Assembly (NCBI RefSeq): GCF_005222785.1
Contig: NZ_STGH01000005.1
Location: forward strand, 1 to 64,000
From: Rhodobacter sp. SY28-1
GTDB taxonomy: Bacteria > Pseudomonadota > Alphaproteobacteria > Rhodobacterales > Rhodobacteraceae
Reading direction: 5' to 3'
DNA: 64,000 bases
Position numbers and translations under genes: made by a program. Below, piece after piece: positions 18,863 to 62,766 of the stretch (positions within the stretch are counted from its first letter, which is position 1; each line of letters begins with the position of its first letter). The notes beneath the pieces are model-generated. The model saw nothing but the letters and a program-made list of their open reading frames with translations. It was not told the DNA's origin and did no database searches.

Positions 18863-18932
18863 AAGAAACCCCTAACGCCCGCGACCAAGTCATTGCTTTC
18901 ATTGTCATTCTTGGTTTTGTCCACCGTGGACA
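18863..18932 (-). repeat. 70-bp palindrome-led element, copy A
   Basis: Read on the minus strand, the palindrome TGTCCACGGTGGACA (18918-18932) is followed by 40 bp and then by CGTTAGGGGTTTCTT, ending at 18863. It matches 36993-37062 without a gap. Here it is between the 3' ends of convergent genes, so it is not a promoter for either neighbour. Confidence 0.82.
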
Positions 18933-18935
18933 CTC

Positions 18936-20198
18936 TCACGCCAGAAGCCGCGTTCCATCCTGCCCGGTGACCCGAACCTCCAGGATCGCCCCCTCGGGCT
19001 GGTCCGCCGCGAAGGCCACCTCGGCGAAGCCTTCCGTCCGCCCGACCCGCGCTCCTTCGGTCAGCACCCGGTGGACCCGGCCCACTTGCGCCGCCAGATG
19101 CTCCCTCAGAACCCGGTCCCCCAAGGCCCGCAGCCGCGCCGCGCGTTCCTTGATTTCCGGCCCCCGGACCTGCGGCATCCGCGCCGCCGGGGTCCCCTTG
19201 CGGGGGCTGAACGGGAAGACGTGCAGGAAGGTCAGCCCACAGTCCTCGACCAAGTCCAGCGACCGCTGGAACATCGCCTCCGTTTCGGTCGGAAACCCCG
19301 CGATGATGTCGGCCCCGAAGACCATCTCCGGCCGCGACGCCCGGACTTCCTCACAGAACCGGATCGCATCATCCCGCAGATGGCGACGCTTCATCCGTTT
19401 CAGGATTAGGTCATCCCCCGCCTGCAGCGACAGGTGCAGGTGGGGCATCAACCGCGCCTGCGTCGCAATCGCCTCGATCAGCGCCGGGTCGGCCTCGATG
19501 GAATCGATGGACGATATCCGCAGCCGGGGCACGCTGGTCAGCTTCAAGATCCGCCGCACCAGATCGCCCAAGCGCGGCTCCCCCGGCAGGTCCGCGCCCC
19601 ATGAGGTCAGGTCCACCCCGGTCAGCACGACCTCGTTGAACCCGCGCTCCACCAGCCGGTTGATCTGCTCGACCACCACCCCCGCCGGGACCGAGCGGGA
19701 ATTCCCCCGGCCGTAAGGAATGATACAAAACGTGCAGCGGTGGTCGCAGCCGTTCTGGACCTGCACATAGGCCCGGTGCCGCCCAAACCCGTCGATCAGG
19801 TGCCCCGCCGTTTCGCGGACCGACATGATGTCGTCGACATGAACCTTCTCGGTCACTCCGATCAGGTCCGGGGCCGCAATGCCCTGCCAGGTCTCGGCTT
19901 GCATCTTCTCGTGGTTGCCCACGACCCGGGCGACCTCGGGCATCGCCGCGAAGGTCTCGGGTTCTGTCTGCGCCGCGCAGCCGGTCACGATGATCGCCGC
20001 GCACGGATTTTCCCGCGAGAGCCGCCGGATCTCCTGCTTGGCTTTGCGCACCGCCTCGCCCGTCACGGCGCAGGTGTTGACGATCACCGCACCCGACAGG
20101 CCGGCCGCCGCGGCAAGCTCTTTCATTGCCTCGGTCTCGTAGGCGTTCAGGCGACAACCCAGCGTCGCAAAGACCGGGGGTTTCTGCACAACGTTCAT
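18936..20198 (-). CDS. mtaB: MtaB tRNA methylthiotransferase (t6A37 to ms2t6A37)
   Basis: MtaB is a radical-SAM enzyme that adds a methylthio group to t6A at position 37 of tRNAs reading ANN codons. The 420-residue product has the N-terminal cluster cysteines in TLGCRLN, NTCAV and TGCAAQ and the radical-SAM motif CDHRCTFC. Next come PYGRGNSRS and the [13 protein letters not shown] block that is characteristic of this group. Its start overlaps the dapF stop by four bases (ATGA). Confidence 0.95.
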
Positions 20199-21034
20199 CT
20201 GTGCGCCGCGAGATAGTCGGGTGTCAGAATCCCGTCAAAGACCCGCGCCACAGGGCCAGTCAGCCAGACGCCGTCCTCACGCCAGTCGACTTCCAGCACC
20301 CCGCCGTCAACTTCCAGCGCGACCCGAGGCCCGATCATTCCCCGCAGATGTGCCGCCACCGCCGTGGCGCAAGCCCCAGAGCCGCAGGCGAGCGTGATGC
20401 CCGTTCCGCGTTCCCAGACACGCATCCGCATCCGGCAGGGCGAGAGAAGGGACGCGAACTCCACGTTCGTGCGCTGGGGAAACAGGGGGTCATGTTCGAT
20501 CTGCTGCCCGAGTGTCGCCAGATCCAATGCCTCGGCATCCGGCACGAAATGCACGCAGTGCGGATTGCCCATCCCGATGGCCACAGGATCGCCGGGCAGA
20601 GGCAGATGCAGATGGTCAACCTCGCGCGCAAGAGGGATCGACTGCCAGGTCAGCTGCGGCAGGCCCATGTTGACCCAGATGCGCCCATCCGCTGCCCGCT
20701 CTGCCCGCAGGCCGCCGCGCGCCGTCACCAATGAGACCTGGTCCAAACCCAGATCCTGCATCACATAGTCCGAGACACAGCGGGTCGCGTTGCCGCATGC
20801 CCCGGCCTGCGATCCGTCGCTGTTCCAGAAGGTCAGCGCGAAATCGGCGTCCGTGGAACTGGTGATCTCGGCCAACTGGTCAAATCCAACGCCGCGATTC
20901 CGGTCGCCCAGCGCCTGCGCCAGGCCAGCCGTCATCACCGGCCCGCGCCCGCGCGAGTCGATCACCACGAAATCATTGCCCGCGCCGTGCATTTTCATGA
21001 ACGGAAGGCCGGTTTGCGCCTGGGTATCCATCAT
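20195..21034 (-). CDS. dapF: Diaminopimelate epimerase
   Basis: DapF converts LL- to meso-diaminopimelate for lysine and peptidoglycan. The 279-residue product has both catalytic cysteine motifs, ACGNATRC in the first half and ACGSGACAT in the second, and the N-terminal [14 protein letters not shown]. The start was placed at the first of two adjacent ATGs. The other dap genes in the window (dapD, dapE) lie 34 kb away. Coupled with mtaB. Confidence 0.96.
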
Positions 21035-21129
21035 CGGAAGGCATATACGCCCCTGACCCAAGATTTGCCAGTACCACACGTTTTTGCCCTTGACCCCCGC
21101 CTGCGGCTTGCCTAATCAGCCGCCTCGTG

Positions 21130-21205
21130 GGGCCGGTAGCTCAGTTGGTAGAGCAGCTGACTTTTAATCAGCGGGTCACAGGTTCGAATCCTGTCCGGCT
21201 CACCA
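21130..21205 (+). tRNA. tRNA-Lys (anticodon TTT)
   Basis: A 76-base tRNA with acceptor stem GGGCCGG/CCGGCTC (one G-T pair), D arm GCTCAGTTGGTAGAGC, anticodon loop CTTTTAA in a GCTGA/TCAGC stem, T arm with GGTTCGAATCC and an encoded CCA end. The anticodon is TTT. Confidence 0.97.
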
Positions 21206-21299
21206 CAATTCCGTCAAATGCAGACGCAGGCACAAGCAGCCCTCCGGGCTGGATTTGACTTATCGGTGCGCCAAGCCGGGTTCGGCACGACAGGCGGCG

Positions 21300-22025
21300 C
21301 TACCGACCTTTCGCGCGCAGCCAATCCTCGATGATCTCGCGATGGCGCGCGCCCGAATAGCTTGGAAAGTGCCCGCCATGGACAACCCGCACCGGAAGAC
21401 GCAAGAGCCGTTCCATCGACACGATGTACTGCCAGCGTTCCAGATCGCTGGTGCCCTCGATCAACTCACCATCGTAAACGATATCCCCGGAAAACAGGAT
21501 TCCCGTCGCGGCCTCCCATAGCGCGATGCCACCGGGGGAATGGCCCGGGGTGTGGATCACCTCGAACTGCCGATCGCCAAGGTCGATGATGTCGGCATCC
21601 CAGAGGAGACGGCTCACCGGCGCGGCGTGGACGGTGTAGGTCTCGGATTGGTAAGGCTCGGGTGGCAGGGTGGTGAAGATGTCATCGGTGACGTATTTGT
21701 CGGCGAAGGTGTTTTCGCGCGTGGGAGCGCGGAGGAGATGCGCTTCGGCAGCGTGACAAAGGCGGCAGGGGAATTCGTGGTGCAGACCGACATGGTCAAA
21801 ATGGGTGTGGCTTGCCACAGCCTGCAGCGGGCGTTCGGTCACCAGCGGTACCTGGTCGCGCAGGCTGACCACGCCCATGCCGCTGTCGACCAGCATGTCG
21901 GTGTCGCGGCCCCGGACATGCCAGACGTTGCAACGGTAGAATTCGCGGATGTGCGGCTCGTCGATATGGGTGACGCCGTCGCCCACGCTGCGGACACGCC
22001 ACCAGTCTTCGGGCTTTGCTCTCAT
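21300..22025 (-). CDS. Metallo-beta-lactamase fold hydrolase
   Basis: The 241-residue product has the metal-binding signature SHTHFDHVG (H-x-H-x-D-H), the later HTPGHSPGGIALW histidine and the GILFSGDIVYDGEL aspartate, then VHGGHFPSY. No signal peptide, so cytoplasmic. The start overlaps the stop of the ABC ATPase gene by four bases (ATGA), placing it last in the importer operon. It may hydrolyse a product of the imported compound, but the substrate cannot be read from the sequence. Confidence 0.88.
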   Translation of the reverse strand: MRAKPEDWWRVRSVGDGVTHIDEPHIREFYRCNVWHVRGRDTDMLVDSGMGVVSLRDQVPLVTERPLQAVASHTHFDHVGLHHEFPCRLCHAAEAHLLRAPTRENTFADKYVTDDIFTTLPPEPYQSETYTVHAAPVSRLLWDADIIDLGDRQFEVIHTPGHSPGGIALWEAATGILFSGDIVYDGELIEGTSDLERWQYIVSMERLLRLPVRVVHGGHFPSYSGARHREIIEDWLRAKGR

Positions 22026-23020
22026 TCGGTCAGCACCACCCAGGTTTCGGCTCCAAGATCCAGCACCCCGCCATGCTCTACCGATTGAGACTGCGGCAGA
22101 TGCACAATCAAGCGCAAGTCCGTGGCTGCCAGGGGCGAGACGTGCACGCGGATGTGGGCGCCGAAGAACGCTGCATCTTCTACCTTGCACGGGCCGATGC
22201 GAAGCGCCCCGGCCGGGGTGATCGCCTCGGGCCGGATGCAGAGCGTGCCGTCCGGGACATCGACCGGTCCAAAGGGCGCGCGCCCCCCGGCGACCGGAAT
22301 GCGGTTGATCTCACCCATGAAGCCTGCGGTGAAAAGGGTTTTCGGCTGCAGGTAGACCTCACGCGGCGGGCCAACATGTTCGATGTGGCCTGCGTTCATC
22401 ACCACGATTCGGTCGGCGATGGCCATGGCTTCCTCCTGGTCATGGGTGACATGCACGAAAGTCGTCCCGACCCGGCGCTGGATCGCCTTCAACTCGTCCT
22501 GCATCTGGCGGCGAAGCTTGAGGTCCAGCGCACCCAATGGTTCGTCGAGGAGAAGGACATCGGGTTCGACGGCAAGCGCACGGGCCAAGGCGACACGTTG
22601 GCGCTGACCGCCGGAAAGCTCATGCGGACGGCGGTCGCCCCGGCCTTCAAGGCCCACGAGTGCCAGCATCTGGTCGGCCTTCGCAGCGCGCTTGCCGCGA
22701 TCAATCCCTCGCATCCGCAGCCCGAAGGCCACGTTGTCGCGCAGCGACATGTGGGGGAATAGGGCATAGTCCTGAAACACGGTTGTCGTAGGCCGGTCCT
22801 TCGGCGCGACGCCCGCCATGTCGCGGCCCCCGATCAGGATCGCGCCCTCCGTCGGTTCGGTGAACCCGCCGATCAGGTTCAGAAGCGTGGTCTTCCCACA
22901 GCCCGAGGGGCCGAGGAGGACGACGAACTCGCCCGCCTCGATCTCCAGGCTGACCCGGTCCAGCGCGGTGGCCTGCCCGTAGCGTTGTGAGACGGCTTGG
23001 ATCGACACAGCGGCGGTCAT
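22022..23020 (-). CDS. ABC importer ATP-binding protein, PotA-like
   Basis: The 332-residue ATPase has Walker A GPSGCGKTT near residue 37, signature LSGGQRQRVALARAL, Walker B VLLLDEPLGALD and the H-loop VTHDQEEAM. A C-terminal TOBE-type regulatory domain (about 240-332) marks it as the polyamine/iron/sugar class (PotA, FbpC). The neighbouring PotD-like binding protein points to polyamine-like substrates. It overlaps both flanking genes by four bases. Confidence 0.93.
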   Translation of the reverse strand: MTAAVSIQAVSQRYGQATALDRVSLEIEAGEFVVLLGPSGCGKTTLLNLIGGFTEPTEGAILIGGRDMAGVAPKDRPTTTVFQDYALFPHMSLRDNVAFGLRMRGIDRGKRAAKADQMLALVGLEGRGDRRPHELSGGQRQRVALARALAVEPDVLLLDEPLGALDLKLRRQMQDELKAIQRRVGTTFVHVTHDQEEAMAIADRIVVMNAGHIEHVGPPREVYLQPKTLFTAGFMGEINRIPVAGGRAPFGPVDVPDGTLCIRPEAITPAGALRIGPCKVEDAAFFGAHIRVHVSPLAATDLRLIVHLPQSQSVEHGGVLDLGAETWVVLTE

Positions 23021-23787
23021 GGGCGTTTCCGGAAGACGGTGAGTTCAAGGAGGATGACGAGGGTGACCGAAACGAGGAAGACCAGCGAGCCCACGGCATT
23101 GGTGGCGGGCGAGAGGCCGGATTTCAGCATCGACCAGATTTCCACGGGCAGGGTGACGTCGAAGCGGGTGAGGAGGAAGGCGATGATGAACTCGTCCCAG
23201 GAGAAGGTGACGGACAGGAAGAAGGCAGCGGCAAGGGGGACGGCGAGCATCGGCGCGGAGATGAGGGTCACCACCTTCCATTCGGGCGCGCCAAGATCGC
23301 GGGCGGCGCGTTCGGCGGATCGCTGGTGGTCGCCCATGGCGGCGTAGGTGATGGCAAAGCAGAGCGGGAGGTTGACGACGACATGGCCAATGCCTGCGGT
23401 GAGAAGCGAGAGGCGGAGGCCAGTCAGGTTGAAGAGGTTCAGCAGACCAAGCGCGACAATCAGGTAGCTGACGGTCATGGGCGCGATGAGCACGCCACGC
23501 ATCAGGGCCGACCCGGGGAGGCGGACCCGCGCCAGCGCATGGGCGGCGAGGAAGCCGAGAATCAGCGCGACAAGCGAGGAGACGACGGCGACGAGGAGCG
23601 AGTTCAGGAGGGCCGCCGTCAGGTCGTCATTCCCCAGCACCTTGGCATACCAGTCCAGCGTCACGCCCTTGAAGGGCGGTACCGGCAGTCGCCCGTCCTG
23701 AAAGCTGAAGGCGACCAACACGGCGACGGGGAGGAAGACGAAGGCATAGGCGACGGCAAGGTATGCCCAGGAAAGAGTGCGTATCAT
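23017..23787 (-). CDS. ABC importer permease, PotC-like
   Basis: A 256-residue inner-membrane permease with about six hydrophobic segments, starting SWAYLAVAYAFVFLPVAVLVAFSF. The coupling-helix EAA motif is visible as AERAARDLGAPEWKVVTLI, where the ATPase docks. Overlaps the ATPase gene start by four bases. An 82-base gap separates it from the other permease gene upstream, the only gap of any size in this operon. Confidence 0.92.
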   Translation of the reverse strand: MIRTLSWAYLAVAYAFVFLPVAVLVAFSFQDGRLPVPPFKGVTLDWYAKVLGNDDLTAALLNSLLVAVVSSLVALILGFLAAHALARVRLPGSALMRGVLIAPMTVSYLIVALGLLNLFNLTGLRLSLLTAGIGHVVVNLPLCFAITYAAMGDHQRSAERAARDLGAPEWKVVTLISAPMLAVPLAAAFFLSVTFSWDEFIIAFLLTRFDVTLPVEIWSMLKSGLSPATNAVGSLVFLVSVTLVILLELTVFRKRP

Positions 23788-23869
23788 CCGGATGGCCTCC
23801 CCGTGCGCCGTCGGCTTCTCGTCGGTGGTGGCGAAGCGAGGAATGACGCAGTCATCGACAAGCGCCCCC

Positions 23870-24724
23870 TCACACCCGGTCCAGCCGAAGCCAGCGGCTG
23901 CTGGCGAAATAGGCCAGCGTCACCACGGCCATCAACACCACCGACAGGGCCGAGGCGAGCGGAAAATTTCCGCTGCGGCCCAGTTGCAGCATGATGAGTT
24001 GCGGCAAGGTCAGTTCGGTGTTCCCGCCCAGGATCTGCGGCGTGATGTAGTCGCCGATGCAGAGAACAAACGTCAGGAAGGCCCCGGTGATGACGCCCGG
24101 CAGGGTCAGGGGCAGGATGACATGGGTGAAGCACTGCCAGCGGCTTGCGCCGAGGTCCTGCGCCGCGCGGGCGTAGTTCGGGGACAACTGGATCAGGTTC
24201 GCATAGATCGTCAAAGTCAACAGCATGACAAAGAAGTGGACGAAGCCGATCACCGTGGCTGCCCGGGTCGAGGCGATCTCCAACGGCTCGGCGATAAGGC
24301 CCAGGCCCAAAAGCGTCTTGTTCACCACCCCGTTCTGTCCCAGCACCAGAAGCCATGAATAGGACCGCACGACATAGGAGGTCCAGAACGGCAGCACTGC
24401 CAGCAGAAGCGCAAGCCGTTGCCAACAGGCAGGAACCCGGAAGGCGATGATCGCGGCCAGGGGGTAGGCGAGGACGATGGAAATCACCGTGACGACGACC
24501 GTGATCTCCAGGCTGTTCCGCAGCGCCTCAAGCATCACAGGGTCGGTGAAGATGCGGGTGTAATTACCGGGGTCGAAACCGCGGACGATCTCGCGCCCTT
24601 CCATGTGCGCGAACGAAAGCGCGATCATCGCGAAAAAGGGCAGGATGAAAAAGGCCGCCGTCCAGACCAGGGCCGGGGCCAGAAGGCCCCAGGCCTGGCG
24701 GCGGTCCTTTGCCGCGAGGCTCAC
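23870..24724 (-). CDS. ABC importer permease, PotB-like
   Basis: The 284-residue permease begins at GTG 24724, one base after the TAG stop of the binding-protein gene. An ATG 57 bases further upstream would lie inside that gene and give an implausible arginine-rich leader. There are about six transmembrane segments, with an EAA motif ARAAQDLGASRWQCFTHVIL. It pairs with the PotC-like permease to form the channel. Confidence 0.92.
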   Translation of the reverse strand: MSLAAKDRRQAWGLLAPALVWTAAFFILPFFAMIALSFAHMEGREIVRGFDPGNYTRIFTDPVMLEALRNSLEITVVVTVISIVLAYPLAAIIAFRVPACWQRLALLLAVLPFWTSYVVRSYSWLLVLGQNGVVNKTLLGLGLIAEPLEIASTRAATVIGFVHFFVMLLTLTIYANLIQLSPNYARAAQDLGASRWQCFTHVILPLTLPGVITGAFLTFVLCIGDYITPQILGGNTELTLPQLIMLQLGRSGNFPLASALSVVLMAVVTLAYFASSRWLRLDRV

Positions 24725-24725
24725 G

Positions 24726-25775
24726 CTATTGCGCCAGCATCTCGGTCCAGAGGTCCTGCATCGCGGTATCCAGCGCGGCATCCGGGATCGGATACAGCTG
24801 CGCGCGCTTCAGGAAATCTGGCTGCTGATCCCAGCGCAGCACAGCCTTCTGTTCGGGCGTCAGCGCGTCGCCTGCCTTGGCATTCGCGGGCATCCCCCAG
24901 TAGCAGGACGAGGTCGCCAGCCGCGCCTGACCTTCGGGAGAGGTGATGTAGTTCACGAACTCCAGCGCGAGGTCGGGCTGCGTCGATCCCGCCACCACGC
25001 CAATAGATTGCGCCCAGCGAAGGCCGCCCTGCTTGGGGATCGTCCAGTCGAGGTTCGGGTTCTCGGCGGCCAGCACCGCCGTCAGCCATTCGCCCCCGCC
25101 GACGACGATGTCGACCTCTCCCGTCGCCAGCGCCGTCTGGGCCGAGACCACGTCGGATACCTGCTTCGACGCCTTGCGCAGCGCCATCAGCGGGTCGCGC
25201 AGCGCGGGCAGGTTCTCGGCAGTGATGTCGGCAGTGTTGGTCCCCTGCCCCAGCGCCACCAACCCGAGGACCGGCAGGTAGTAGTCGTAGATGCCGATCC
25301 GACCGTCATACTTGCCGCCGGTCAGCGCGGCCATGTCCTCCATGTCCGCCGGGTCGACCTTGGTCTTGTCGTAGCTGATCGTGTTGTAGCCGAACTTCTC
25401 GGACACGGCGTAGGTCTTGCCGTCGATCACGTTGTTCTCGGCCATCACCAACTCGGGGAAGAAATCCGCAGTCGCCAGCTTGTCGGCCGGGAGCTCTGCC
25501 ATGTGTCCAGCCTCCACGGCCCGCTTCACGTCGACCGCGTCGATCACCAGCACGTCCCAGTCTCCCGGCTGCGACTGGTCAAGGATCGCCAGACCTGCTG
25601 CGGTGCCTTCGTATTCCTTGAGGTTCACCTTGACCCCGAACTTTTCCTCGAACGGTTCGATCAGCGCCGGGTCGGTGTGGTCGCACCAGACAAGGGCGTT
25701 CAGTTCCTGCGCAAGGCCCGGGGTGGCGGTCAGCAGCAGGGCAAGCGAGGTGGCGGAAAGACGGTTCGCGGTCAT
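24726..25775 (-). CDS. ABC importer substrate-binding protein, PotD-like
   Basis: A 349-residue periplasmic binding protein with a signal peptide (ATSLALLLTATPGLAQ). The first strand ELNALVWCDHTDPALIEPFEEKFGVKVN and the YDYYLPVLGLVALG and VVGGGEWLTAVL regions fit the polyamine-binding class. The start at 25775 was preferred because GGAG lies seven bases upstream, although two upstream in-frame ATGs exist. It is the first gene of the importer operon and is divergent from the TetR regulator. Confidence 0.92.
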   Translation of the reverse strand: MTANRLSATSLALLLTATPGLAQELNALVWCDHTDPALIEPFEEKFGVKVNLKEYEGTAAGLAILDQSQPGDWDVLVIDAVDVKRAVEAGHMAELPADKLATADFFPELVMAENNVIDGKTYAVSEKFGYNTISYDKTKVDPADMEDMAALTGGKYDGRIGIYDYYLPVLGLVALGQGTNTADITAENLPALRDPLMALRKASKQVSDVVSAQTALATGEVDIVVGGGEWLTAVLAAENPNLDWTIPKQGGLRWAQSIGVVAGSTQPDLALEFVNYITSPEGQARLATSSCYWGMPANAKAGDALTPEQKAVLRWDQQPDFLKRAQLYPIPDAALDTAMQDLWTEMLAQ

Positions 25776-25841
25776 CGAAATCTCCATGTCGGGTGGTGGC
25801 CTCTGCTGGGCCCTGAACAAAAGGATTGAGTTCATTCATTT

Positions 25842-35768: not shown

Positions 35769-36911
<1,143 letters not shown>

Positions 36912-36927
36912 GATTCAGGAACACGCC

Positions 36928-36988
36928 TGTCCCCCGGACCGCCTGGGGGACACCTTTACCCCGCCGGGATGTCCTGGCGGGTTTTTTT
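36928..36988 (+). terminator. Tandem hairpins and T-run after ccrM
   Basis: First hairpin TGTCCCCC (36928-36935) with GGGGGACA (36945-36952). Second hairpin CCCGCC (36960-36965) with GGCGGG (36976-36981), extended inward by three further pairs, directly followed by seven T. The second is a strong terminator. Confidence 0.88.
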
Positions 36989-36992
36989 CATG

Positions 36993-37062
36993 TGTCCACG
37001 GTGGACAAAGTCTGATGGTCATTTGAAATCAATCGCTTGGCCGCGAACGTTAGGGGTTTCTT
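36993..37062 (+). repeat. 70-bp palindrome-led element, copy B
   Basis: TGTCCACGGTGGACA at 36993-37007, 40 bp, then CGTTAGGGGTTTCTT at 37048-37062. It starts a few bases after the ccrM terminator T-run and ends 80 bases before the next gene. It aligns base for base in spacing with copies A and C. Confidence 0.82.
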
Positions 37063-37142
37063 TACCCGCGGTTTTTGGCCCTTTCGGGTTGTGCGCAAGC
37101 CCCGAATCCGGTCTTCTGGACCCCCAGAAGACGGAGGCGGAT

Positions 37143-38687
37143 ATGAACGGCGCAGAGACTTTGGTGGAGACGCTCCTTGCCTCGGGCGTGACCGTCTGCT
37201 TTGCCAATCCCGGCACGTCGGAGATGCACTTTGTCCATGCACTCGACCAGCACCCGGAAATGCGCTGTATCCTTTGCCTGTTCGAGGGCGGCGTGTCCGG
37301 CGCGGCGGATGGGTATTTCAGGATGAAAGGGGAGGTGGCGGCGACGCTTCTGCACCTGGCCCCCGGCTTCGGCAATGCCTTTGCAAACCTGCACAATGCC
37401 CGAAAGGCGCAGTCGGGCGTCCTGAACATCATGGGCGACCATGCGGATTACCATCTGCGGTTCGAGGCCCCACTGAAGGGCGACACGATGGGGATCGCCC
37501 AGGCTGTGTCCCATTGGACGCGGGTCTCCTCGTCCTCGACCAAGGTCAGCGGCGACGCGGCCGAGGCAATCCAGGCGGCGCGGGCCAAAGGCGGACAGAT
37601 CGCAACGCTGATCCTGCCCGCCAACACGGCCTGGGAGGAGGCGTCGAGCTTTGCCGTCGCGGCCCCGCCCCCTGCCCTGCGGCGTCCGTCGCGGGAGGAG
37701 GTCACGGCGGCGGCCAATGCCCTGCGCCAGCCTGGGGCAATCCTGATGATCGACGGACCGGCGCTGTTCACCGATCTGGGGCATCTGGCCACGCGCCTGA
37801 CCAAGGCCTGCGGCGCGCGGCTGATGCAGCCCTTCTTCGTCAGCCGCTTCCGGCGCGGAGCGGGCTCGGTGAAGATCGAACGGATGGCCTACAGGATCGA
37901 GGACAACCGCAAGCTTCTGGCCGGGGTGCCATCGCTGGTCCTGTGCGGGACTGCCCGACCGGCGGGGTTCTTCGCCTATCCCGGCCTGCCCTCGACCCCC
38001 GACGATCCGGAGACGCGGCTGATCGAGCTGTGCAGCCGCGAGATGGACATCGAATGGACCCTGCAGGCACTGGCCGCGGAGTTGGGCGAGGCGGAGCTTG
38101 GCCCCGAGGATTTCGTCAGCCTCGACTTGCCCGCCCTCCCCGAGGGCGCTTTGACCGTGACCAAGGTCGGCGAGGCGATTGCTGCGCTGATGCCCGAGAA
38201 CGCGGTGGTGGTGGATGAGGGGATTTCAGCGTCCTACTACCTGGCGCCGGGGCTGAAGCGGGCGCGGGGGCATGACGCGCTGACGATCACGGGGGGGTCC
38301 ATCGGGTTCGGCCTGCCGAACGCGGTGGGCGCGGCGGTCGCCTGCCCGGACCGCAAGGTCGTGGTGCTGGAGGGCGACGGGTCGGGGATGTACACGCTGC
38401 AGTCGTTGTGGACGATGGCCCGCGAAGGGCTGGACGTGACCACGGTGATCTTCGCCAACCGCGGCTACCAGATCCTGCGCGACGAGCTGGCGGCGATGGG
38501 GGTGAACGAGGTCGGCCACAATGCGCAGCGGATGTTTGACGTGGAAGGGCCGAACCTGGACTGGGTTGCATTGGCGCAGGGGCATGGCGTTCAGGCGGTG
38601 CAGGTGAAAGATATGGCCGGGTTCAACGCGGCGTTTGCCGAGGCGATGGGGCAACGCGGTCCGAGGTTGATCGAAGTGGTCTGCTGA
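37143..38687 (+). CDS. Acetolactate-synthase-like thiamine diphosphate enzyme
   Basis: The 514-residue product has the three-domain architecture of the thiamine-diphosphate superfamily. The N-terminal part has VTVCFANPGTSEMHFVHALD and FEGGVSGAADGYFRM, with the catalytic glutamate region. The C-terminal cofactor motif is GDGSGMYTLQSLWTMAREGLDVTTVIFANRGY (GDG followed about 30 residues later by N). It is shorter than acetolactate synthase and lacks the FAD features. Known relatives decarboxylate 2-keto acids. The substrate is not clear. Transcription could start in the preceding gap that holds repeat copy B. Confidence 0.88.
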   Translation: MNGAETLVETLLASGVTVCFANPGTSEMHFVHALDQHPEMRCILCLFEGGVSGAADGYFRMKGEVAATLLHLAPGFGNAFANLHNARKAQSGVLNIMGDHADYHLRFEAPLKGDTMGIAQAVSHWTRVSSSSTKVSGDAAEAIQAARAKGGQIATLILPANTAWEEASSFAVAAPPPALRRPSREEVTAAANALRQPGAILMIDGPALFTDLGHLATRLTKACGARLMQPFFVSRFRRGAGSVKIERMAYRIEDNRKLLAGVPSLVLCGTARPAGFFAYPGLPSTPDDPETRLIELCSREMDIEWTLQALAAELGEAELGPEDFVSLDLPALPEGALTVTKVGEAIAALMPENAVVVDEGISASYYLAPGLKRARGHDALTITGGSIGFGLPNAVGAAVACPDRKVVVLEGDGSGMYTLQSLWTMAREGLDVTTVIFANRGYQILRDELAAMGVNEVGHNAQRMFDVEGPNLDWVALAQGHGVQAVQVKDMAGFNAAFAEAMGQRGPRLIEVVC

Positions 38688-55800: not shown

Positions 55801-56955
55801 ATGATGCCTTTCGATCCTTTAGACCCTGTCGACCTGACTGCGCGGCTGATCCGGTGCCCGTCGGTGACTCCGGCCGAGGGCGGGGCGATTGCGCTGTTGG
55901 CCGAGGTGCTGGGCGAGGCGGGCTTTGCCTGCACGCGGGTCGACCGGGGCGGGATTGCCAACCTTTATGCGCGCTGGGGCAAGCAGGGGGCGAACAAGGC
56001 GTTCGGGTTCAACGGGCATACCGACGTGGTGCCGGTAGGAGACGTGGCGGCCTGGCGGCATGATCCGTTCGGGGCCGAGGTGAAGGACGGGGTGATGTAT
56101 GGCCGGGGCGCCTGCGACATGAAGTCGGGGGTGGCGGCCTTTGTCGCGGCGGCTGTGGATTTCGTGCGCGAGACGCCCCCCGACGGCGCGGTGATCCTGG
56201 CGATCACCGGCGACGAGGAAGGCGAGGGCAAGGACGGCACGGTGGCGATCCTGGACTGGATGGCGTTCAACGGCGAGCGGATGACGCATTGCCTGGTGGG
56301 CGAGCCGACCTGCCCGAACGAGATGGGCGAGATGATGAAGATCGGCCGTCGCGGCAGCATGACGGCGCGGATCACGGTGACGGGGGTGCAGGGGCATTCG
56401 GCCTATCCGCACCGGGCGAAGAACCCCCTGTCAGCGCTGGTGAAGTTGCTGGCCAAGCTTGACGCCGAGCCGCTGGACCGGGGGACGCAGCATTTCGACC
56501 CCTCGACGCTTGCGATCACCACGATCGACTGCGGCAACCCGGCCTCGAACGTGATTCCGGCGCAGGCGACGGCCACGGTGAACATCCGGTTCAACGATAC
56601 CCATTCCGGCGACACGCTGTCGGCCTGGCTGCGGCATGAGGCCGAAGCGGTGGCCGAGGCTTCGGGCTGCGAGATCGGGCTGAAGATTTCCGTGTCGGGC
56701 GAGGCGTTCCTGACCCCGCCGGGTGAGTTGTCGGCGCTGGTGGCGCGCGCTGTGCAGGCCGAGACGGGGAAGAAGCCGGTCGCCTCGACCAGCGGCGGGA
56801 CATCGGATGCGCGGTTCGTCAAGGACCATTGCCCGGTGATCGAGTTCGGCCTGGTCGGCAAAACCATGCACCAGGTCGATGAGCGGGTGGAAATCGCGCA
56901 TATCCAGCAGCTGAAGTCGATCTATGGCCGCATCCTGCGGGAGTATTTCGCATGA
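55801..56955 (+). CDS. dapE: Succinyl-diaminopimelate desuccinylase
   Basis: DapE is a two-zinc deacylase of the lysine/DAP route. The 384-residue product has the metal motifs [33 protein letters not shown] and the later HCLVGEPT and dimer-domain [10 protein letters not shown]. The start codon is the first of two adjacent ATGs. A GTG nine bases upstream is also possible. It overlaps the GNAT gene by four bases. Confidence 0.96.
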
Positions 56956-57386
56956 GCCTTTCCGATACCCTGAAGATCGAGGTGACGCAGGACATCCCGA
57001 CCTGCCAGGCCCTGCGCCGGGTGGTGTTCATCGACGAACAGGGCGTCAGCGAGGCGGATGAGGTCGACGGGCTGGATGGCCGGGCGATCCATCTTCTGGC
57101 CTGGGACGGGGAGTGTCCGGTGGGCACGGCGCGACTGCTGGTCAAGGGTGCTGTCGGCAAGATCGGCCGGGTCTGCGTGCTGCCCGAGGCACGGGGGCTG
57201 GGCCTGGGTGCGGCGCTGATCCGGTCGGCGCTGGAGGAGCTGGGGCGGATCCCGGGAGTGTCCGAGGCCTATCTGGGCTCGCAGTCGCATGCGACCGGGT
57301 TCTACGAAAAGTTGGGCTTTCAGGTCGAGGGCGAGGAGTTCCTGGACGCAGGGATTCCCCACCGGCACATGCGTCTCGCCCTTTGA
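56952..57386 (+). CDS. GNAT-family N-acetyltransferase
   Basis: The 144-residue product has the acetyl-CoA binding core [21 protein letters not shown] and the C-terminal [27 protein letters not shown] typical of the ElaA-like or YjcF-like GNAT group. The acceptor cannot be told. It is coupled to dapE by a four-base overlap. After it lies a decayed copy of a dispersed repeat. Confidence 0.92.
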
Positions 57387-57396
57387 ACGGCGGTTT

Positions 57397-57495
57397 TCAA
57401 GCGGAGCGCTGACGCGCAAGTCCTTTGTCTCTCGGCTTTGCGTGAAGGACGCAAATCCGCTCGGGCCGAAGGTGAGTATTTGGGACATGGGCAAA
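57397..57495 (+). repeat. Dispersed repeat, decayed copy 3, with end motif
   Basis: Begins with GAGCGCTGACGCGC and CCTTTGTCTC, matching the start of the 61052-61172 copy. It ends (57474-57495) with GAGTATTTGG followed by GACATGGGCAAA, matching 8275-8296 on the other strand with one mismatch. The middle does not align. It fills the gap before rnr. Confidence 0.6.
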
Positions 57496-57542
57496 TACGG
57501 GTCGGGTAGTCTTGCGCCGGTTGGCGTGCTAGGTCTGCGGGC

Positions 57543-59774
57543 ATGAAACCTTTGCCCTCCAAGGATGAAATCCGTCAGTGGATTTCCGAGAACCCCGGCC
57601 TTTCGGCCAAGCGTGACATTGCCAAGGCCTTCGGCATCAAGGGCGATGCGCGGATCGAGTTGAAAGCCCTGTTGCGCGAGCTGGAGAGCGAAGGCGTGGT
57701 CGAGAAATCCGGCCGTCGCTTTCGCGAGCCAGGGGTGTTGCCGCCTGTGGCGGTGCTGCAGGTGCTGCCGCCGGATGCGCAGGGCGATCTTTATGCCAAG
57801 CCGCTGGAGGAGGGGGTGGACGACAGCCCCCGCATCCTCATCATCCCGAAGAAGGGCGATCCGGCGCTTGGCGCGGGCGACCGGATCCTCGCGCGGCTGG
57901 CGAAGGTCGATCTGGACGATTACGCCTATGAAGCGCGGCTGATCCGGGCGCTGGGGTCGAACCCCAGGAAGGTGCTGGGAATCTTCCGGCTGGGCGCCGA
58001 GGGCGGGCGGGTCGTGCCGACCGAGAAGGGCTCGGACAAGGAATGGCGCGTGGCCGCCGACATGACCGGCGGCGCGCGGGATGGCGAGCTGGTCGAGGCC
58101 GAAGCGGTGGGCGCGCGGCGTCTGGGGCTGCCGGCAGCGCGGGTCACGGTCCGGCTGGGCGACCCCGCGGGGCCGCGGGCGGCGTCTCTGATCGCGATCC
58201 ATCAGCATGGCATCCCGGATGTCTTCCCTGATGCGGTGATCGCCGAGGCGGATCGGGCGGAACCTGTCGGGATGACGGGACGTGAGGATCTGCGCGAGGT
58301 GCCGCTGCTGACCATCGACCCGGTCGATGCGCGGGACCGGGACGATGCGGTCTATGCGGAAGCGGATACGGACCTTGGCAATGTGGGCGGCTTCGTGATC
58401 TGGGTCGCGATTGCCGATGTGGCGCATTATGTGACGCCGGGGTCAGCCCTGGACCGCGAGGCGCGCAAGCGGGGGAATTCGACCTATTTCCCCGACCGGG
58501 TGGTGCCGATGCTGCCGGACATCCTGTCGGGCGATCTGTGTTCCCTGCATGAAGGCGTGGACCGGGCCTGTCTGGCGGTGCGGATGGTGATCGACGCGGG
58601 CGGGCACAAGCGGGGACATCGCTTTGTCCGCGGCATGATGCGGTCGGTGGGATCCCTGCATTACGCGCAGGTGCAGGCGGCGGTGGATGGGGCGCCGGAT
58701 GAGAAGACCGCGCCGCTGGTCGAGCCGGTGCTGAAGCCCCTGTACGCCGCCTATGCCGCGTTGAAACGCGCGCGGGAGGGGCGGCAGCCTTTGGACCTGG
58801 AGCTGCCGGAGCGGAAGATCGAGCTGGACGCCGAGGGCAAGGTCGTCTCGGTCGCCTTCAAGGAGCGGCTGGAGGCGCACAAGCTGATCGAGGAGTTCAT
58901 GATCCTCGCCAATGTCGCGGCGGCGGAGGAGTTGATCCGGCTGAAGCGGCCCTTGCTGTTCCGGGTGCATGAGGAACCCTCGCCGCTGAAGCTGGAGGGC
59001 TTACGCGAGGTGGCGGAAGGCGCGGGGATGACGCTGGCCAAGGGGCAGGTGTTGCAGACGAAGCACCTGAACCGGCTTTTGTCCCAGGCGCAGGGGACGG
59101 AGTTTGATGAGCTGATCAACCTGTCCACATTGAGGTCGATGACGCAGGCCTATTACCACCCGGAGAATTTCGGGCATTTCGGGCTGGCGCTGCGGAACTA
59201 TGCCCACTTCACCAGTCCAATCCGGCGCTATTCCGACCTGATCGTCCACCGAGCGCTGATTTCGGCGCATGGCTGGGGGAAGGACGGACTGAGCCAATGG
59301 GACGAGGAGAACCTGGAGGAGACGGGGAAGCTTATTTCCGAGGCCGAACGGCGGAGCATGGCGGCGGAGCGGGACACGACGGATCGCTACCTGGCGGCCT
59401 ATCTTGCGGATCGGGTCGGGGCGGAGTTCGCCGGGCGGATCTCGGGCGTGCAGCGGTTCGGGGTCTTCGTGCGGCTGGACGAGACCGGGGCGGACGGACT
59501 GATCCCTGTGCGGGCTTTGGGCCGGGAATACTTCAACTATGACGAAGGCAGCCAGACGCTGATGGGATCAGAGACGGGGCTGGTCTTGGGGATCGGGCAG
59601 AAGGTCATGGTGCGGCTGGCCGAGGCGGTGCCAGTGACGGGCGGGTTGATCCTGGACCTGTTGTCGGTCGAAGGCGCGGTGGTGCGGCCCCCGCGACGGA
59701 AGGGGGGGAAGTATCACCCCCGGAAGCCCGCGCAGGCGGCGGCGAAGCGGCGGCTGGTGCGGAAGCGGCGATGA
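57543..59774 (+). CDS. rnr: Ribonuclease R
   Basis: RNase R is the 3'-5' exoribonuclease of structured RNA decay. The 743-residue product has the N-terminal helix-turn-helix-like region (about 10-65), two cold-shock-type domains and the RNB catalytic domain. The catalytic acids are seen in PVDARDRDDAVY. The middle region FTSPIRRYSDLIVHRAL is family-typical. An S1 domain (FAGRISGVQRFGVFVRLDETGADG) and a short K/R tail close it. The stop overlaps the transglycosylase start by four bases. Confidence 0.97.
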   Translation: MKPLPSKDEIRQWISENPGLSAKRDIAKAFGIKGDARIELKALLRELESEGVVEKSGRRFREPGVLPPVAVLQVLPPDAQGDLYAKPLEEGVDDSPRILIIPKKGDPALGAGDRILARLAKVDLDDYAYEARLIRALGSNPRKVLGIFRLGAEGGRVVPTEKGSDKEWRVAADMTGGARDGELVEAEAVGARRLGLPAARVTVRLGDPAGPRAASLIAIHQHGIPDVFPDAVIAEADRAEPVGMTGREDLREVPLLTIDPVDARDRDDAVYAEADTDLGNVGGFVIWVAIADVAHYVTPGSALDREARKRGNSTYFPDRVVPMLPDILSGDLCSLHEGVDRACLAVRMVIDAGGHKRGHRFVRGMMRSVGSLHYAQVQAAVDGAPDEKTAPLVEPVLKPLYAAYAALKRAREGRQPLDLELPERKIELDAEGKVVSVAFKERLEAHKLIEEFMILANVAAAEELIRLKRPLLFRVHEEPSPLKLEGLREVAEGAGMTLAKGQVLQTKHLNRLLSQAQGTEFDELINLSTLRSMTQAYYHPENFGHFGLALRNYAHFTSPIRRYSDLIVHRALISAHGWGKDGLSQWDEENLEETGKLISEAERRSMAAERDTTDRYLAAYLADRVGAEFAGRISGVQRFGVFVRLDETGADGLIPVRALGREYFNYDEGSQTLMGSETGLVLGIGQKVMVRLAEAVPVTGGLILDLLSVEGAVVRPPRRKGGKYHPRKPAQAAAKRRLVRKRR

Positions 59775-61033
59775 GGGGCGGGGCAAAACTTTTCGAAAAG
59801 TTTTGCAGAATCCTTCGAAGGATTTTGGTCGCACTTTCGGTCGGTGGAGTGCCCGGCCTGGCAGCGGCGCAGACGATCCTGCCCGATCCGGTGGCGGGGG
59901 TGGAGGAGAAGATGGGCTCTCAGGCCGGGCTGGACGCGTGGATCGAGGGCTTCCGCACCCGGGCGCTGGAGGCTGGCATTCCGGCGGCGACCTTCGACGC
60001 AGCAATGCAAGGGGTGGAGTTCAACCCGAAGGTCGTGGAGCGCGACCGGAACCAGAACGAGTTCACCAAGACGATCTGGGATTACCTGGATACCGCCGTG
60101 TCGGAGGACCGGGTGGCTTTGGGACTGAAGGCCATCGAGAAGAACCGCGACCTGCTGGAGCGGATCGAGGCGGAGTATGGCGTCGAAAAGGAGGTCGTTG
60201 CGGCGGTCTGGGGCCTGGAGAGCGCCTACGGAACCTATCGGGGCGATCTGTCAGTTCTGGGGTCCTTGGCGACGCTGGCCTATGAGGGGCGGCGGGGGGC
60301 GTTCTTCGAGGCAGAGCTGATCGCGGCCTTGCGGATTGTTCAGGGCGGGCATGTGGAGCGGTTCGCAGGGTCCTGGGCAGGGGCAAGCGGGCACACGCAG
60401 TTCATGCCGTCGTCCTGGGAGAAGTTCGCGGTCGATTTCGACGGGGACGGCAAGAAGAACCTCTGGGGCGATGATCCGGCGGATGCGCTGGCCTCCACCG
60501 CGAATTACCTGCGGCACTGGGGTTGGACGAAGGGGCAACCCTGGGGGGTGGAGGTGCGGCTCCCTGCGGGGTTCGACTATGACCAGACGACCGAGCGGGT
60601 GGTGAAGCCTGTGGCCGAATGGCAGGCGATGGGGGTGCGGACGATCCTTGGCGGCGACCTGCCGGACCATGGGCCGGGGTCGATCCTGCTGCCGGGGGGG
60701 CACCGGGGGGCGGCGTTCCTGATCTGGCCGAACTTCCAGGTGATCGAGAAATACAACACGGCGGATGCCTATGTGGTGGCGATCGGCTCGCTGTCAGACC
60801 GGCTGGCCGGGGGGCAGGCGATCCAGTCAGGCTGGCCGCGGGAGTTGCGCGCGCTGACGCTGGAGGAGCGGCGGGAGTTGCAGGACCTGCTGACCAAGGC
60901 CGGGTTCGATGCGGGCGGGGTCGACGGGCGGATGGGACCGAAGACGGTTGCCGCCGTGAAGGCCTTCCAGAAGGCGAAGGGCATGGTGCCGGACGGGTAT
61001 CCAAGCCTTGAGGTGCTGGACCTCTTGCGCTGA
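59771..61033 (+). CDS. Lytic murein transglycosylase, MltB family with peptidoglycan-binding domain
   Basis: The 420-residue exported enzyme cleaves peptidoglycan. The MltB-type catalytic Glu is in VWGLESAYGTYRGD, with GHTQFMPSSWEKFAVDFDGDG later. A C-terminal peptidoglycan-binding domain (ELQDLLTKAGFDAGGVDGRMGPKTVAAVKAFQ, about 350-415) follows. The start ATG overlaps the rnr stop (ATGA). The positive n-region of the signal peptide (KLFEKFCRILRR) is encoded by two palindromes. Confidence 0.95.
   Translation: MRGGAKLFEKFCRILRRILVALSVGGVPGLAAAQTILPDPVAGVEEKMGSQAGLDAWIEGFRTRALEAGIPAATFDAAMQGVEFNPKVVERDRNQNEFTKTIWDYLDTAVSEDRVALGLKAIEKNRDLLERIEAEYGVEKEVVAAVWGLESAYGTYRGDLSVLGSLATLAYEGRRGAFFEAELIAALRIVQGGHVERFAGSWAGASGHTQFMPSSWEKFAVDFDGDGKKNLWGDDPADALASTANYLRHWGWTKGQPWGVEVRLPAGFDYDQTTERVVKPVAEWQAMGVRTILGGDLPDHGPGSILLPGGHRGAAFLIWPNFQVIEKYNTADAYVVAIGSLSDRLAGGQAIQSGWPRELRALTLEERRELQDLLTKAGFDAGGVDGRMGPKTVAAVKAFQKAKGMVPDGYPSLEVLDLLR
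59783..59806. repeat. 24-bp perfect palindrome in transglycosylase signal-peptide codons
   Basis: GCAAAACTTTTC joined to GAAAAGTTTTGC. It encodes part of the positive region of the signal peptide and lies three bases before a second palindrome. It is AT-rich, unlike the flanking genes. Confidence 0.75.
59809..59824. repeat. 16-bp perfect palindrome, second of a pair
   Basis: AATCCTTCGAAGGATT, directly following the first palindrome. The TTCGAA core is shared by both. Together they look like a short palindromic pair absorbed at the 5' end of the transglycosylase gene. Confidence 0.72.
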
Positions 61034-61051
61034 TTCTTCGTGCGGGAACGG

Positions 61052-61172
61052 AATTGAGCGCTGACGCGCGACGACCTTTTGTCTCGTCGTCGGGGCCTGG
61101 CACCCCTCCTCCTCGGTGGAAAGGGGTTTCACCCCCAAACCCCCAAGATGTTTCCAGAAGAGAAAGCCTTGG
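61052..61172 (+). repeat. About 120-bp dispersed repeat, copy 2
   Basis: Reverse complement aligns with 18704-18826 across its length, with nearly equal size (121 and 123 bp). It fills the gap between the transglycosylase gene and the convergent rsmB gene, the same convergent position as copy 1. Confidence 0.8.
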
Positions 61173-61174
61173 GG

Positions 61175-62407
61175 TTAGCTCGGCTTGTGCAGGCGGGCCA
61201 TGAAGAAGCCGTCCATGCCGCCGCGATCGGCCCAATAGTCCGGGCGGAGGCGGAGGGCACCTTCCTGGGTCCACCAGCCTGGGTCGATACCGTCGAGGGT
61301 CGGGCGTTCGACAGTCAAGGTGGGGTTGCGGCTCAGGGCTGCGGTGAGTTGCGCCTCGCCTTCCTCGGGAAAGAGCGAGCAGGTGGAGAAGACCAGGCGG
61401 CCGCCGGGTTTCAGCCAGGTGAGGGCGCGGTCGAGGAGTCGGGATTGGAGGGCGGTGAGGGAGGGAAGCTCGGAGCCGTCCTTGACGAAGGGGAGGTCGG
61501 GGTGGCGGCGGATGGTGCCAGTGGCGGAGCAGGGGGCGTCGAGGAGAATCGCGTCGAAGGGGGCCTCGGGCTGCCAATGGAGGGCGTCGGCGGTGACGAG
61601 GGTGGCTGTCAGGCCGGTGCGGGTGAGGTTGGCTTCGACCCGGGCCATGCGGGGGGCGGAGATGTCGAGGGCGGTGACCTGGGCCCCGTTGGCGGCGAGT
61701 TGCAGGGTCTTCCCGCCGGGGGCGGCGCAGAGGTCGAGGATGCGTTCGCCGGGCTGCGGGGCGAGGAGTTTCGCAGGGAGGGCGGCGGCGGTGTCCTGGA
61801 CCCACCAGCCGCCTTCGGCGTAGCCCGGCAGGGTGGAAAGCTGTCCGGGGGAGCGGAGGCGGAGGCTGCCGGTGGGGAGGATCTCGCCCTCGGGGTGGGG
61901 GAAGCCGTCACGGAGGGTGAGGTCGAGCGGGGGCTCCTGGGACTGGACGGCCTCAATGGCGGTGACGGCGTCGCGGCCGTAGCTGTGGACGAGGGCTTGG
62001 CGGATCCAGCGGGGGAGTTTCTGGACCGGCAGGGTGACGGGGTCGGGCAGCGCGCGGAGGACGGCATTGACGAGGCCGGTCAGGTGGGCGGTGCGCTTGC
62101 CGCCCTGGCGGGTGATCTCCACCGCCGCGTTGACGGTGCCGTGGGCCGGGGCGCCTTGCTCACGTTCCACTACGGCTAGGCGGAGGGTGTTGCGGACGGT
62201 CAGGGGCGGGGATTTGCGGAGGTGTTTCTCCAGCAGTTTGTCCGCCGGTTCCAGGTGGCGGAGCACGGTCTCGGCGAGCCGCAGGGCGCGGGCGCGGTCG
62301 GCGGGGGCGAGGTGGTCTCCGGAGAAATCGGACAGCATCCGGCCTTCGCCGAGGACGCCGTCCAGGATTGCGACTGCGGTGGCGCGTGCGGTGACCCCTT
62401 CGGCCAT
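61175..62407 (-). CDS. rsmB: RsmB 16S rRNA m5C967 methyltransferase
   Basis: The 410-residue product has an N-terminal NusB-like domain (about 1-140) and a C-terminal SAM methyltransferase domain with LDLCAAPGGKTLQL, the two catalytic cysteines in LDAPCSATGT and STCSLFPEE, and DPGWW near the end. The GGKT loop and two-cysteine pattern are diagnostic of RsmB. The start at 62407 faces the small SdhAF4-like gene. Confidence 0.96.
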   Translation of the reverse strand: MAEGVTARATAVAILDGVLGEGRMLSDFSGDHLAPADRARALRLAETVLRHLEPADKLLEKHLRKSPPLTVRNTLRLAVVEREQGAPAHGTVNAAVEITRQGGKRTAHLTGLVNAVLRALPDPVTLPVQKLPRWIRQALVHSYGRDAVTAIEAVQSQEPPLDLTLRDGFPHPEGEILPTGSLRLRSPGQLSTLPGYAEGGWWVQDTAAALPAKLLAPQPGERILDLCAAPGGKTLQLAANGAQVTALDISAPRMARVEANLTRTGLTATLVTADALHWQPEAPFDAILLDAPCSATGTIRRHPDLPFVKDGSELPSLTALQSRLLDRALTWLKPGGRLVFSTCSLFPEEGEAQLTAALSRNPTLTVERPTLDGIDPGWWTQEGALRLRPDYWADRGGMDGFFMARLHKPS

Positions 62408-62478
62408 GTCCGTCCTCTTGCTGGTTCCGGGGGCGGGGTTATATCAGGTGGGAGGGCCACACAAGGAAAGGGTCTGTC

Positions 62479-62649
62479 ATGGACGACGATCTGCCCCCCG
62501 CGGCGAAGCGGGCGCTGGCCGAGGCCGAGGAGCGGCGAAAGGCGGCGGCCTTGAAGGAACCCCTGCCGAAAGAGCTGGGGGGTCGGGACGGGCCGGAGCC
62601 GGTCAGGTACGGGGACTGGGAGAAGAAGGGGCTGGCGGTCGATTTCTGA
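62479..62649 (+). CDS. DUF1674 / SdhAF4-like succinate dehydrogenase assembly factor
   Basis: This 56-residue protein is small but clear. It ends with the DUF1674 signature ELGGRDGPEPVRYGDWEKKG and LAVDF, the C-terminus of SdhAF4 (Sdh8). The N-terminal half is charged and A/E/R-rich (PPAAKRALAEAEERRKAAALKE). In mitochondria and alphaproteobacteria SdhAF4 protects flavinated SdhA during complex II assembly. AAGGAAAGGG precedes the ATG. It diverges from rsmB. Confidence 0.88.
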   Translation: MDDDLPPAAKRALAEAEERRKAAALKEPLPKELGGRDGPEPVRYGDWEKKGLAVDF

Positions 62650-62696
62650 GGGCGGCCTGGGGCCGCTCCTCGTTCGACTTCGTCTCCTCGTCGCTT

Positions 62697-62766
62697 TGTC
62701 CACGGTGGGTATTTGCGGATTGCTGTTTGAATTCAGTCTCTTGCCTGTGGGCGTTAGGGATTTGGA
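62697..62766 (+). repeat. 70-bp palindrome-led element, copy C (partly decayed)
   Basis: TGTCCACGGTGGGTA at 62697-62711 (last bases of the palindrome changed), then 40 bp, then CGTTAGGGATTTGGA at 62752-62766. Internal blocks TTTGAA and CTTG-like TCTTG also fall at the same offsets as in copies A and B. It lies between convergent genes (SdhAF4-like and cupin). Confidence 0.72.

Follow-up and report, generated by a model that had tools for sequence, protein, structure and literature searches.

A three-module intergenic element with an IHF-type site and a changing palindrome behind genes of Rhodobacter sp. SY28-1

Introduction

The window discussed herein is a stretch of 64,000 nucleotides from Rhodobacter sp. 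SY28-1 (contig NZ_STGH01000005.1, positions 1 to 64,000), and the subject is a short intergenic element present there in three copies. These copies belong to a family of more than 100 short elements in this 4.28-Mb genome (G000), mostly located just 3' of genes. As read from sequence, the element combines three modules at fixed spacing, is placed and oriented with respect to gene 3' ends, recurs with the same layout in other genera and turns over its palindrome between species. With a probability of roughly 0.52, the family is best explained as a genome-wide, DNA-level nucleoprotein element at gene 3' ends, which would be bound and bent by IHF and would play a boundary role.

In the proposed mechanism, IHF would bind the central WATCARNNNNTTR site and bend the 72-bp element into a U-turn, bringing together the two flanking recognition modules. 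The palindrome after the stop codon would be read by a putative lineage-specific DNA-binding protein, and the TTA[AG]-N7-TTAA block by CtrA or another protein. The resulting complex would most likely serve as a boundary where the upstream gene ends, by transcription termination or a roadblock, or by topological insulation. It may stop RNA polymerase, insulate supercoils or mainly serve the element's own spread. Among the three options offered by an earlier sequence-only reading of the window (a mobile noncoding repeat, a protein-bound chromosome site or a small RNA), the second is the best supported, its binding being predicted from sequence.

Family size and anatomy of the element

The sequence-only reading had described three ungapped copies in the window. 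Direct reading gives the same positions, with exactly 40 bp from the 15-bp palindrome TGTCCACGGTGGACA to CGTTAGGG in all three, and the palindrome of the third copy is degraded as reported (TGTCCACGGTGGGTA). Within the window, the palindrome with up to three mismatches matches 8 times (2.9 expected), and CGTTAGGGNTTT with at most one mismatch 3 times (0.34 expected). The predicted further copies and the fixed spacing were both found in the rest of the genome. Exact TGTCCACNGTGGACA occurs 70 times genome-wide, while its reversed but not complemented control is absent, and GTGG followed by GTTAGGGNTTT at a variable gap gives 17 genome-wide matches, 15 of them 59 bp long and the other 2 one base shorter. 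A sequence-only model (R1), built from 25 palindrome-anchored copies of the same genome, returned 128 rows at E ≤ 1, 119 at E ≤ 0.01 and at least 114 at E ≤ 0.001 among the best 150 of 1,501 first-look candidates; four of the 128 rows are opposite-strand readings of copies already counted. Since the best 150 candidates per genome were scored in all R1 searches, the copy numbers and the spread are lower bounds.

An alignment of 72 copies from this genome delimits an element of 72 bp, with sharp limits at columns 1 and 72. Columns 1–15 hold the 15-bp palindrome, exact in 57 of the 72 copies, a uniformity which is partly selected because R1 favors this very palindrome. Columns 35–47 correspond to the IHF consensus and read W (89%), W (99%), T (72%), C (91%), A (93%), A/G (73/22%), N4, T (93%), T (95%) and G (88%); the best-scoring offset of this core is identical in 67 of the 72. 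Columns 58–72 form TTA[AG]-N7-TTAA (TTA at 58–60, TTAA at 69–72), with the two halves one helical turn apart, and a minority of copies has ATTTGGAAAGG as its ending instead. Pairwise identity within the genome amounts to 0.80 in the functional columns and 0.40 in the linkers.

The IHF-type site and the CtrA-like right block

The main clue, missed by the sequence-only reading, is the central block, whose motif points to an IHF-type site. According to an excerpt of PMC10380432, IHF has the consensus WATCAANNNNTTR, its core being CA and TT. Across 61 right blocks from six species, the sole invariant columns are C10, A11, T17 and T18; as these equal the CA/TT core at the correct distance, the central block is read as a candidate IHF site. 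Eight or nine of the nine specified IHF positions are matched in 53 of 72 copies of this genome and in 38 of 48 copies from relatives, against about 0.2% at flank offsets, although these copies were found by models that contain the columns in question. This circularity is avoided by anchoring on the palindrome. In G069, a member of genus g40, a search with the 12-bp core TCCGAGCTCGGA over 20 regularly placed 20-kb stretches yielded 13 palindromes, of which 11 carry a strict IHF core at the expected distance, always on one side and not the other, and the other two are one base off (control, 6 of 20,000 windows). Among the first 15 palindromes listed in G000, the strict pattern is found at 7, and CA-N5-TT stands at the expected place in 11.

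The resemblance of the right-hand block to a CtrA site, also proposed earlier, holds for the majority consensus of the 61 right blocks, which is exactly TTAA-N7-TTAA, the published CtrA full site (excerpt of PMC6180460). It is looser in individual lineages: in G000 the left half is more often TTAG than TTAA, and every copy listed for G069, in g40, has CTTGGAC as its spacer (a block that was part of the search pattern).

Placement at gene ends

Both neighbors could be called for 66 of 71 copies in this genome, after exclusion of matches above E 1e-4, spans shorter than 45 model positions, duplicate sequences and five locus-edge copies. Thirty-three copies lie between convergent genes, 18 are co-oriented with their neighbors, 14 are opposite to both and one lies in a divergent gap. 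The gene calls come from a simple codon-usage script that misses small genes, as at copy 3, so the class opposite to both neighbors is probably inflated. Where the upstream gene is co-oriented, the palindrome starts 0–14 nt after the stop codon in 46 of 51 copies, compared with 11.2 expected for uniform placement in the same gaps. In most cases, then, the left end of the element borders on the 3' end of the upstream gene, and the right side follows no such rule. Copy 2, behind the ccrM-type gene, and the copy at locus L011 directly follow the T-run of an intrinsic terminator, as seen by eye.

The same counts bear on the idea that the element is a promoter or operator for the downstream gene or a small RNA under the control of CtrA or IHF. 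The full CtrA site would suit it, but the 33 copies that face a convergent gene have no gene in front, just one copy lies in a divergent gap, and inspection by eye showed no −10/−35 pair (a promoter scan was not made). This explanation is highly improbable.

Turnover of the palindrome within the genus

R1 found matches in all nine congeners searched, with 19 to 128 per genome at E ≤ 0.01. Exact TGTCCACNGTGGACA is far less even: it occurs 78–108 times in 4 of 12 congeners, 0–3 times in the other 8 and never in 8 genomes of other genera. Other palindromes take its place. In G001, GCGCCGCGCGCGGCGC is present in 9 of 16 copies and a GC-rich stem of that kind in 13 of 16, and in G007 a GTCCC/GGGAC stem is common to 7 of 8. 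In G004, TGTCCACGCGTGGACA occurs in 3 of 16 copies and the G000 form in 2 of 16; in G003, the G000 form and TGTCCACGCTGGACA are found in 2 of 16 each; and in G012 the GC-rich form is found in 2 of 16. The copies of G001 and G012 and part of those of G004 were chosen from right-block-only matches. The palindrome is thus near-uniform in G000, G001, G007 and G069 and mixed in G003, G004 and G012. In each of five congeners (G001, G003, G004, G007 and G012) the mean stem length exceeds that of shuffled letters.

Orthologous sites show the exchange more directly. Behind mtaB, the element is present at 19 of 29 readable loci, 18 of which keep CA-N5-TT, with at least six palindrome forms; behind ccrM, it is present at 6 of 30 loci, and in G003 and G035 the downstream gene is retained but the element is absent (both sites were scored by eye, own locus included). 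A right-block hidden Markov model (HMM) gave no match at E ≤ 0.1 on 80 named ccrM loci of about 3 kb or less each. The ccrM locus of G034 is identical over 3,119 bp to that of Rhodobacter sp. YIM 73028, a member of this genus, and no element was seen following mtaB or ccrM in that strain. On a two-gene tree of mtaB and ccrM, the GC-rich palindrome appears in two separate places, G001/G029 and G012. At a further site, whose flanks match in G000, G007 and G012, the palindromes are TGTCCACGCAGGACA, TGTCCCGGGCAGGGACA and GCGCCGCGCGCGGCGC, with linker and right block nearly identical. Such different palindromes beside near-identical linkers and right blocks show that the palindrome has been exchanged in place. 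Separately, the elements at L101 (position 2052), L052, L271, L048, L281 and L282 form a subfamily with the unusually conserved linker GGCCGCAAGGGATTCCAATGGGTTAGCTGTGGGCG; the first three, preceded by a gene which is presumably alcohol-dehydrogenase-like, are orthologous.

One exact palindrome per genome is shared by 57 of 72 copies in G000, by 25 of the 30 copies read in G069 (an 18-bp form preceding the block) and by 9 of 16 in G001, and one stem by 7 of 8 in G007, with differing linkers. Unrelated linkers next to a near-uniform palindrome in several species speak for selection by a trans-acting factor rather than for recent copying. The pattern has exceptions: the species with mixed palindromes, a few related pairs (26 of 2,556, see below) and the ccrM absences show that some movement or loss occurs as well. 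A tentative extension holds that the putative binder of each lineage evolves fast and, upon a change in specificity, some 100 palindromes would be rewritten in place while the IHF site, the spacing and the right block stay, the mixed species being caught in mid-change. If true, this system would be a bacterial equivalent of the PRDM9 hotspots and other binding systems that switch rapidly across a genome.

A stem that is kept while its sequence changes between species, with a loop of varying length, may also be read at the RNA level, as a hairpin in the 3' untranslated region (UTR) that protects or ends the mRNA (a REP-like stabilizer or a Rho-dependent terminator), the downstream blocks being processing or Rho-related sequence. 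The orientation along the upstream gene directly after the stop codon agrees with this, and the mixed stems of three species suit a structure requirement. Yet a simple hairpin would not require 57 of 72 copies to share one palindrome, columns 35–36 are 89% and 99% A/T without a pairing role, and no T-run follows the palindrome in the copies read. A hairpin 0–5 nt after a stop codon also lies under the terminating ribosome. The RNA structure predicted from the 25-row alignment of this genome is just a 6-bp hairpin at the palindrome, without any pair changed on both sides, and Rfam has no match at the element in the window at gathering thresholds. The last two results also lend no support to the small RNA proposed in the sequence-only reading, and the RNA-level explanation as a whole is improbable.

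The patchy occupancy of the ccrM site, where G003 and G035 are empty but retain the downstream gene, is what a nonautonomous element resembling a miniature inverted-repeat transposable element (MITE) would leave. Such an element would have IHF at its end and insert beside gene 3' ends, with a lineage-specific transposase or recombinase reading the palindrome and the right block. In addition, 26 of 2,556 pairs of copies in this genome have first linkers at least 75% alike (three column-shuffled sets gave 3, 0 and 3), many G069 copies repeat the palindrome half GTCCGAG at their right end, and IHF sites are known in the Correia MITEs of Neisseria (excerpt of PMC2229807). Linkers within the genome are, on the other hand, mostly unrelated, which makes most copies old, and 19 of 29 readable mtaB loci hold the element. 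A Y1/RAYT transposase (PF01797) exceeds the cut-off in none of 31 genus genomes, with the E. coli and Caulobacter controls detected and two matches under the cut-off (G026 and G031, E 5e-4 and 7e-4); other transposase families were not searched. Viral contigs gave one match for the palindrome type of G000 and none for the g40 type, and the plasmids searched none. This explanation is considered rather unlikely. The mobile noncoding repeat of the earlier reading thereby keeps the presence and absence at the ccrM site in its favor and loses on the copies within the genome, which are mostly not recent duplicates. Carriage by phages or plasmids was rejected, as a single viral contig combines the G000 palindrome type with an IHF-like core.

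Spread to other genera and distribution along the chromosome

A right-block model (R2) was searched at family scale with the best 31 candidates per genome scored under stricter filters, so that its counts are again lower bounds. It matched 8 of 197 genomes of other genera, 1–4 times each, and a local HMM refound 14 of 15 places taken from these matches. The palindromes there differ by genome: GCGTCCCACCGTGGGACGC and a variant in G197, GTCCCACGCGTGGGAC and GCGTCCCATGCATGGGACG in G075, GCGTCCGAGCTCGGACGC in G069, TGTCCACGGTGGACA and two related forms in G058, and a weak CTGTGTTACAG-type in G162; at the R2-matched places of G064 and G235 no palindrome was found. A pattern joining the IHF core to the right block gave 79 matches in G069, 29 in G000, 28 in G001, 11 in G162, 9 in G082 and 4 in G197, 1–2 in 13 further genomes (control level) and none in 180; its control gave 10 matches over 199 genomes. 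G082 and G172 (a single copy) have palindromes of their own. Judged by these motifs, the layout recurs in eight genera counting that of the window, the others being represented by G197, G075, G069, G162 (weakly), G058, G082 and G172. At loci L342 and L331 of G162, a palindrome-like block (CTCCCTGTGTTACAG / CTTGTAACACAGGGGG) occurs both ways round with respect to the IHF site and behaves as an exchangeable module.

Along the chromosome, a ruler finds no support: inter-copy distances are not significantly more regular than random (P = 0.055, 0.38 and 0.46 for C1, C2 and C3 of G000, for which 97 of the stronger matches were picked by hand, and 0.97 for G069). A replication polarity in G069, suggested by rows listed that were all on the plus strand, was dropped, as the 71 occurrences of TTAACTTGGACTTAA with TTG ten bases before it mix strands (29 plus, 42 minus). 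One stretch of 536 kb in G069 (C1, 3,280,426–3,816,348) has no exact TTG-N10-TTAACTTGGACTTAA match, compared with a mean gap of 55 kb, and at least one palindrome-bearing element (L395) lies inside it. Near its right end, the sampled GC skew passes from negative at 3.70 Mb to positive at 3.95 Mb. The spacing and this stretch are the observations that bear on a chromosome site of the ParB, Noc, SlmA or MatP type, for which a non-random spread along the chromosome or exclusion from a macrodomain would be expected.

Weighing the boundary reading

Several observations weigh against a bent nucleoprotein boundary at gene ends. Fourteen of the 66 scorable copies lie on the strand opposite to both neighbors, as far as a gene finder that misses small genes can tell. 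The ccrM and L011 copies follow an intrinsic terminator, which would make a second terminator superfluous. The spacing of the copies is not significantly more regular than random, and those of G069 are, if anything, clustered. At 4 of the first 15 palindromes listed in G000, CA-N5-TT is missing, and the CtrA identity of the right-block reader goes as far as a resemblance. No palindrome dominates in G003, G004 or G012: among the forms counted, none is exactly repeated in more than 2–3 of 16 copies. Such mixtures would not be expected of a binder that acts strictly across a species; found in three of the six species examined within the genus, they lower the confidence in the boundary reading and in the switching binder alike. 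Moreover, palindrome length ranges from 15 to 18 bp, a variation that agrees no less well with a hairpin than with one fixed dimer, and the palindrome of G162 is weak and occurs in both orientations.

The copies in the window and their neighbors

The neighborhoods given in the sequence-only reading were confirmed for each copy: the first lies in the convergent gap of mtaB and a DUF1513 gene, the second after the intrinsic terminator of ccrM, and the third between a gene of 56 amino acids, which we take to be DUF1674-like, and a convergent cupin gene (Table 1). For the ccrM-type gene, the top NCBIfam match is CcrM with 638 bits, under the curated cut-off of 830, and the Pfam methylase and RAMA domains are over their cut-offs. 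Its 3' region (36912–36990) reads CACGCCTGTCCCC...GGGGACACC... and then the intrinsic terminator. Most of the 30 loci show strong conservation of this region, beyond what is expected of an ordinary 3' UTR, and it has a GTCC/GGAC hairpin of its own inside. A tRNA gene at 21130–21202 is the sole Rfam match in the window at gathering thresholds.

Table 1. Element copies, their parts and adjacent genes, in window coordinates.
Feature	Position	Strand	Context or sequence
Element copy 1 (columns 1–72)	18861..18932	-	3 nt 3' of mtaB stop codon
Copy 1, palindrome	18918-18932		
Copy 1, IHF-like core	18886-18898		AAGCAATGACTTG
Copy 1, right block	18861-18877		
Element copy 2	36993..37064	+	directly 3' of T-run of ccrM intrinsic terminator
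Copy 2, palindrome	36993-37007		
Copy 2, exact IHF consensus	37027-37039		AATCAATCGCTTG
Copy 2, right block	37048-37064		
Element copy 3	62697..62768	+	47 nt 3' of stop of 56-aa gene
Copy 3, degraded palindrome	62697-62711		
Copy 3, IHF-like core	62731-62743		ATTCAGTCTCTTG
Copy 3, right block	62752-62768		GGAAAGG subtype
DUF1513 gene	17645..18691	+	convergent with mtaB
mtaB, tRNA t6A37 methylthiotransferase	18936..20198	-	gene preceding copy 1
ccrM-type DNA methyltransferase	35790..36911	+	gene preceding copy 2
Thiamine-pyrophosphate enzyme, acetolactate synthase large subunit family	37143..38687	+	co-oriented, downstream of copy 2
Small 56-aa gene	62479..62649	+	gene preceding copy 3
Cupin-domain gene	62921..63328	-	convergent with copy 3

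Comparison with known systems

None of four palindrome strings was found in the papers searched, and titles and abstract openings of the papers listed on repeats in Rhodobacter and Rhodobacteraceae hold no description of the element. Repetitive extragenic palindromic (REP) and REPIN sequences with their RAYT transposase are likewise intergenic, palindromic, of high copy number and different in palindrome from lineage to lineage. A conserved tetranucleotide next to the stem is a feature of REPs, whereas the logo of the 72 copies has none, and a RAYT-driven family is unlikely, since PF01797 is not over its cut-off in any of the 31 genus genomes. The Correia/NEMIS elements of Neisseria are also short repeats with an IHF site, and are reported to bind IHF in vitro (excerpt of PMC2229807); they measure 105–155 bp with terminal inverted repeats, none of which is visible in the logo of the 72-bp element. 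The CerM-associated intergenic repeats (CIR) of Caulobacter are alphaproteobacterial intergenic repeats too, described around the GANTC methylation motif in the same excerpt, and the logo of the 72 copies contains no conserved GANTC.

The closest relatives in layout are the RIB/RIP elements of E. coli (BIME-1, REP–IHF site–REP), short intergenic repeats with an IHF site beside a palindrome and a location at 3' ends. Boccard and Prentki (1993) are said to have placed the RIB elements at the 3' ends of transcription units, going by their title. To our knowledge, the purpose of these IHF-containing repeats behind genes, described in 1993, is still not settled. BIME-1 carries an IHF site, and gyrase and Rho-dependent termination by REPs have been discussed (excerpt of PMC2817692). 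Like them, the present element has an IHF consensus inside the repeat, as a motif, and a position at 3' ends, judged on gene ends. The two opposed REP palindromes that flank the IHF site in RIB/RIP are not found: one palindrome stands on the left, and a right half-palindrome occurs in G069 only. By analogy, the element would work like RIB/RIP while departing from it in this one defining feature. It further differs by the extra TTA[AG]-N7-TTAA block, by a palindrome that changes between species and in place, and by the lack of a Y1 transposase over the cut-off in its genus.

If the boundary reading with a switching binder is true, the family would be a RAYT-free, independently arisen analogue of RIB/RIP elements. 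Alphaproteobacteria seemingly without a REP transposase show a RIB/RIP-like layout in which one module varies between species and the rest is kept, and this natural experiment makes it testable which protein, if any, reads the palindrome and how the complex affects transcription at gene ends.

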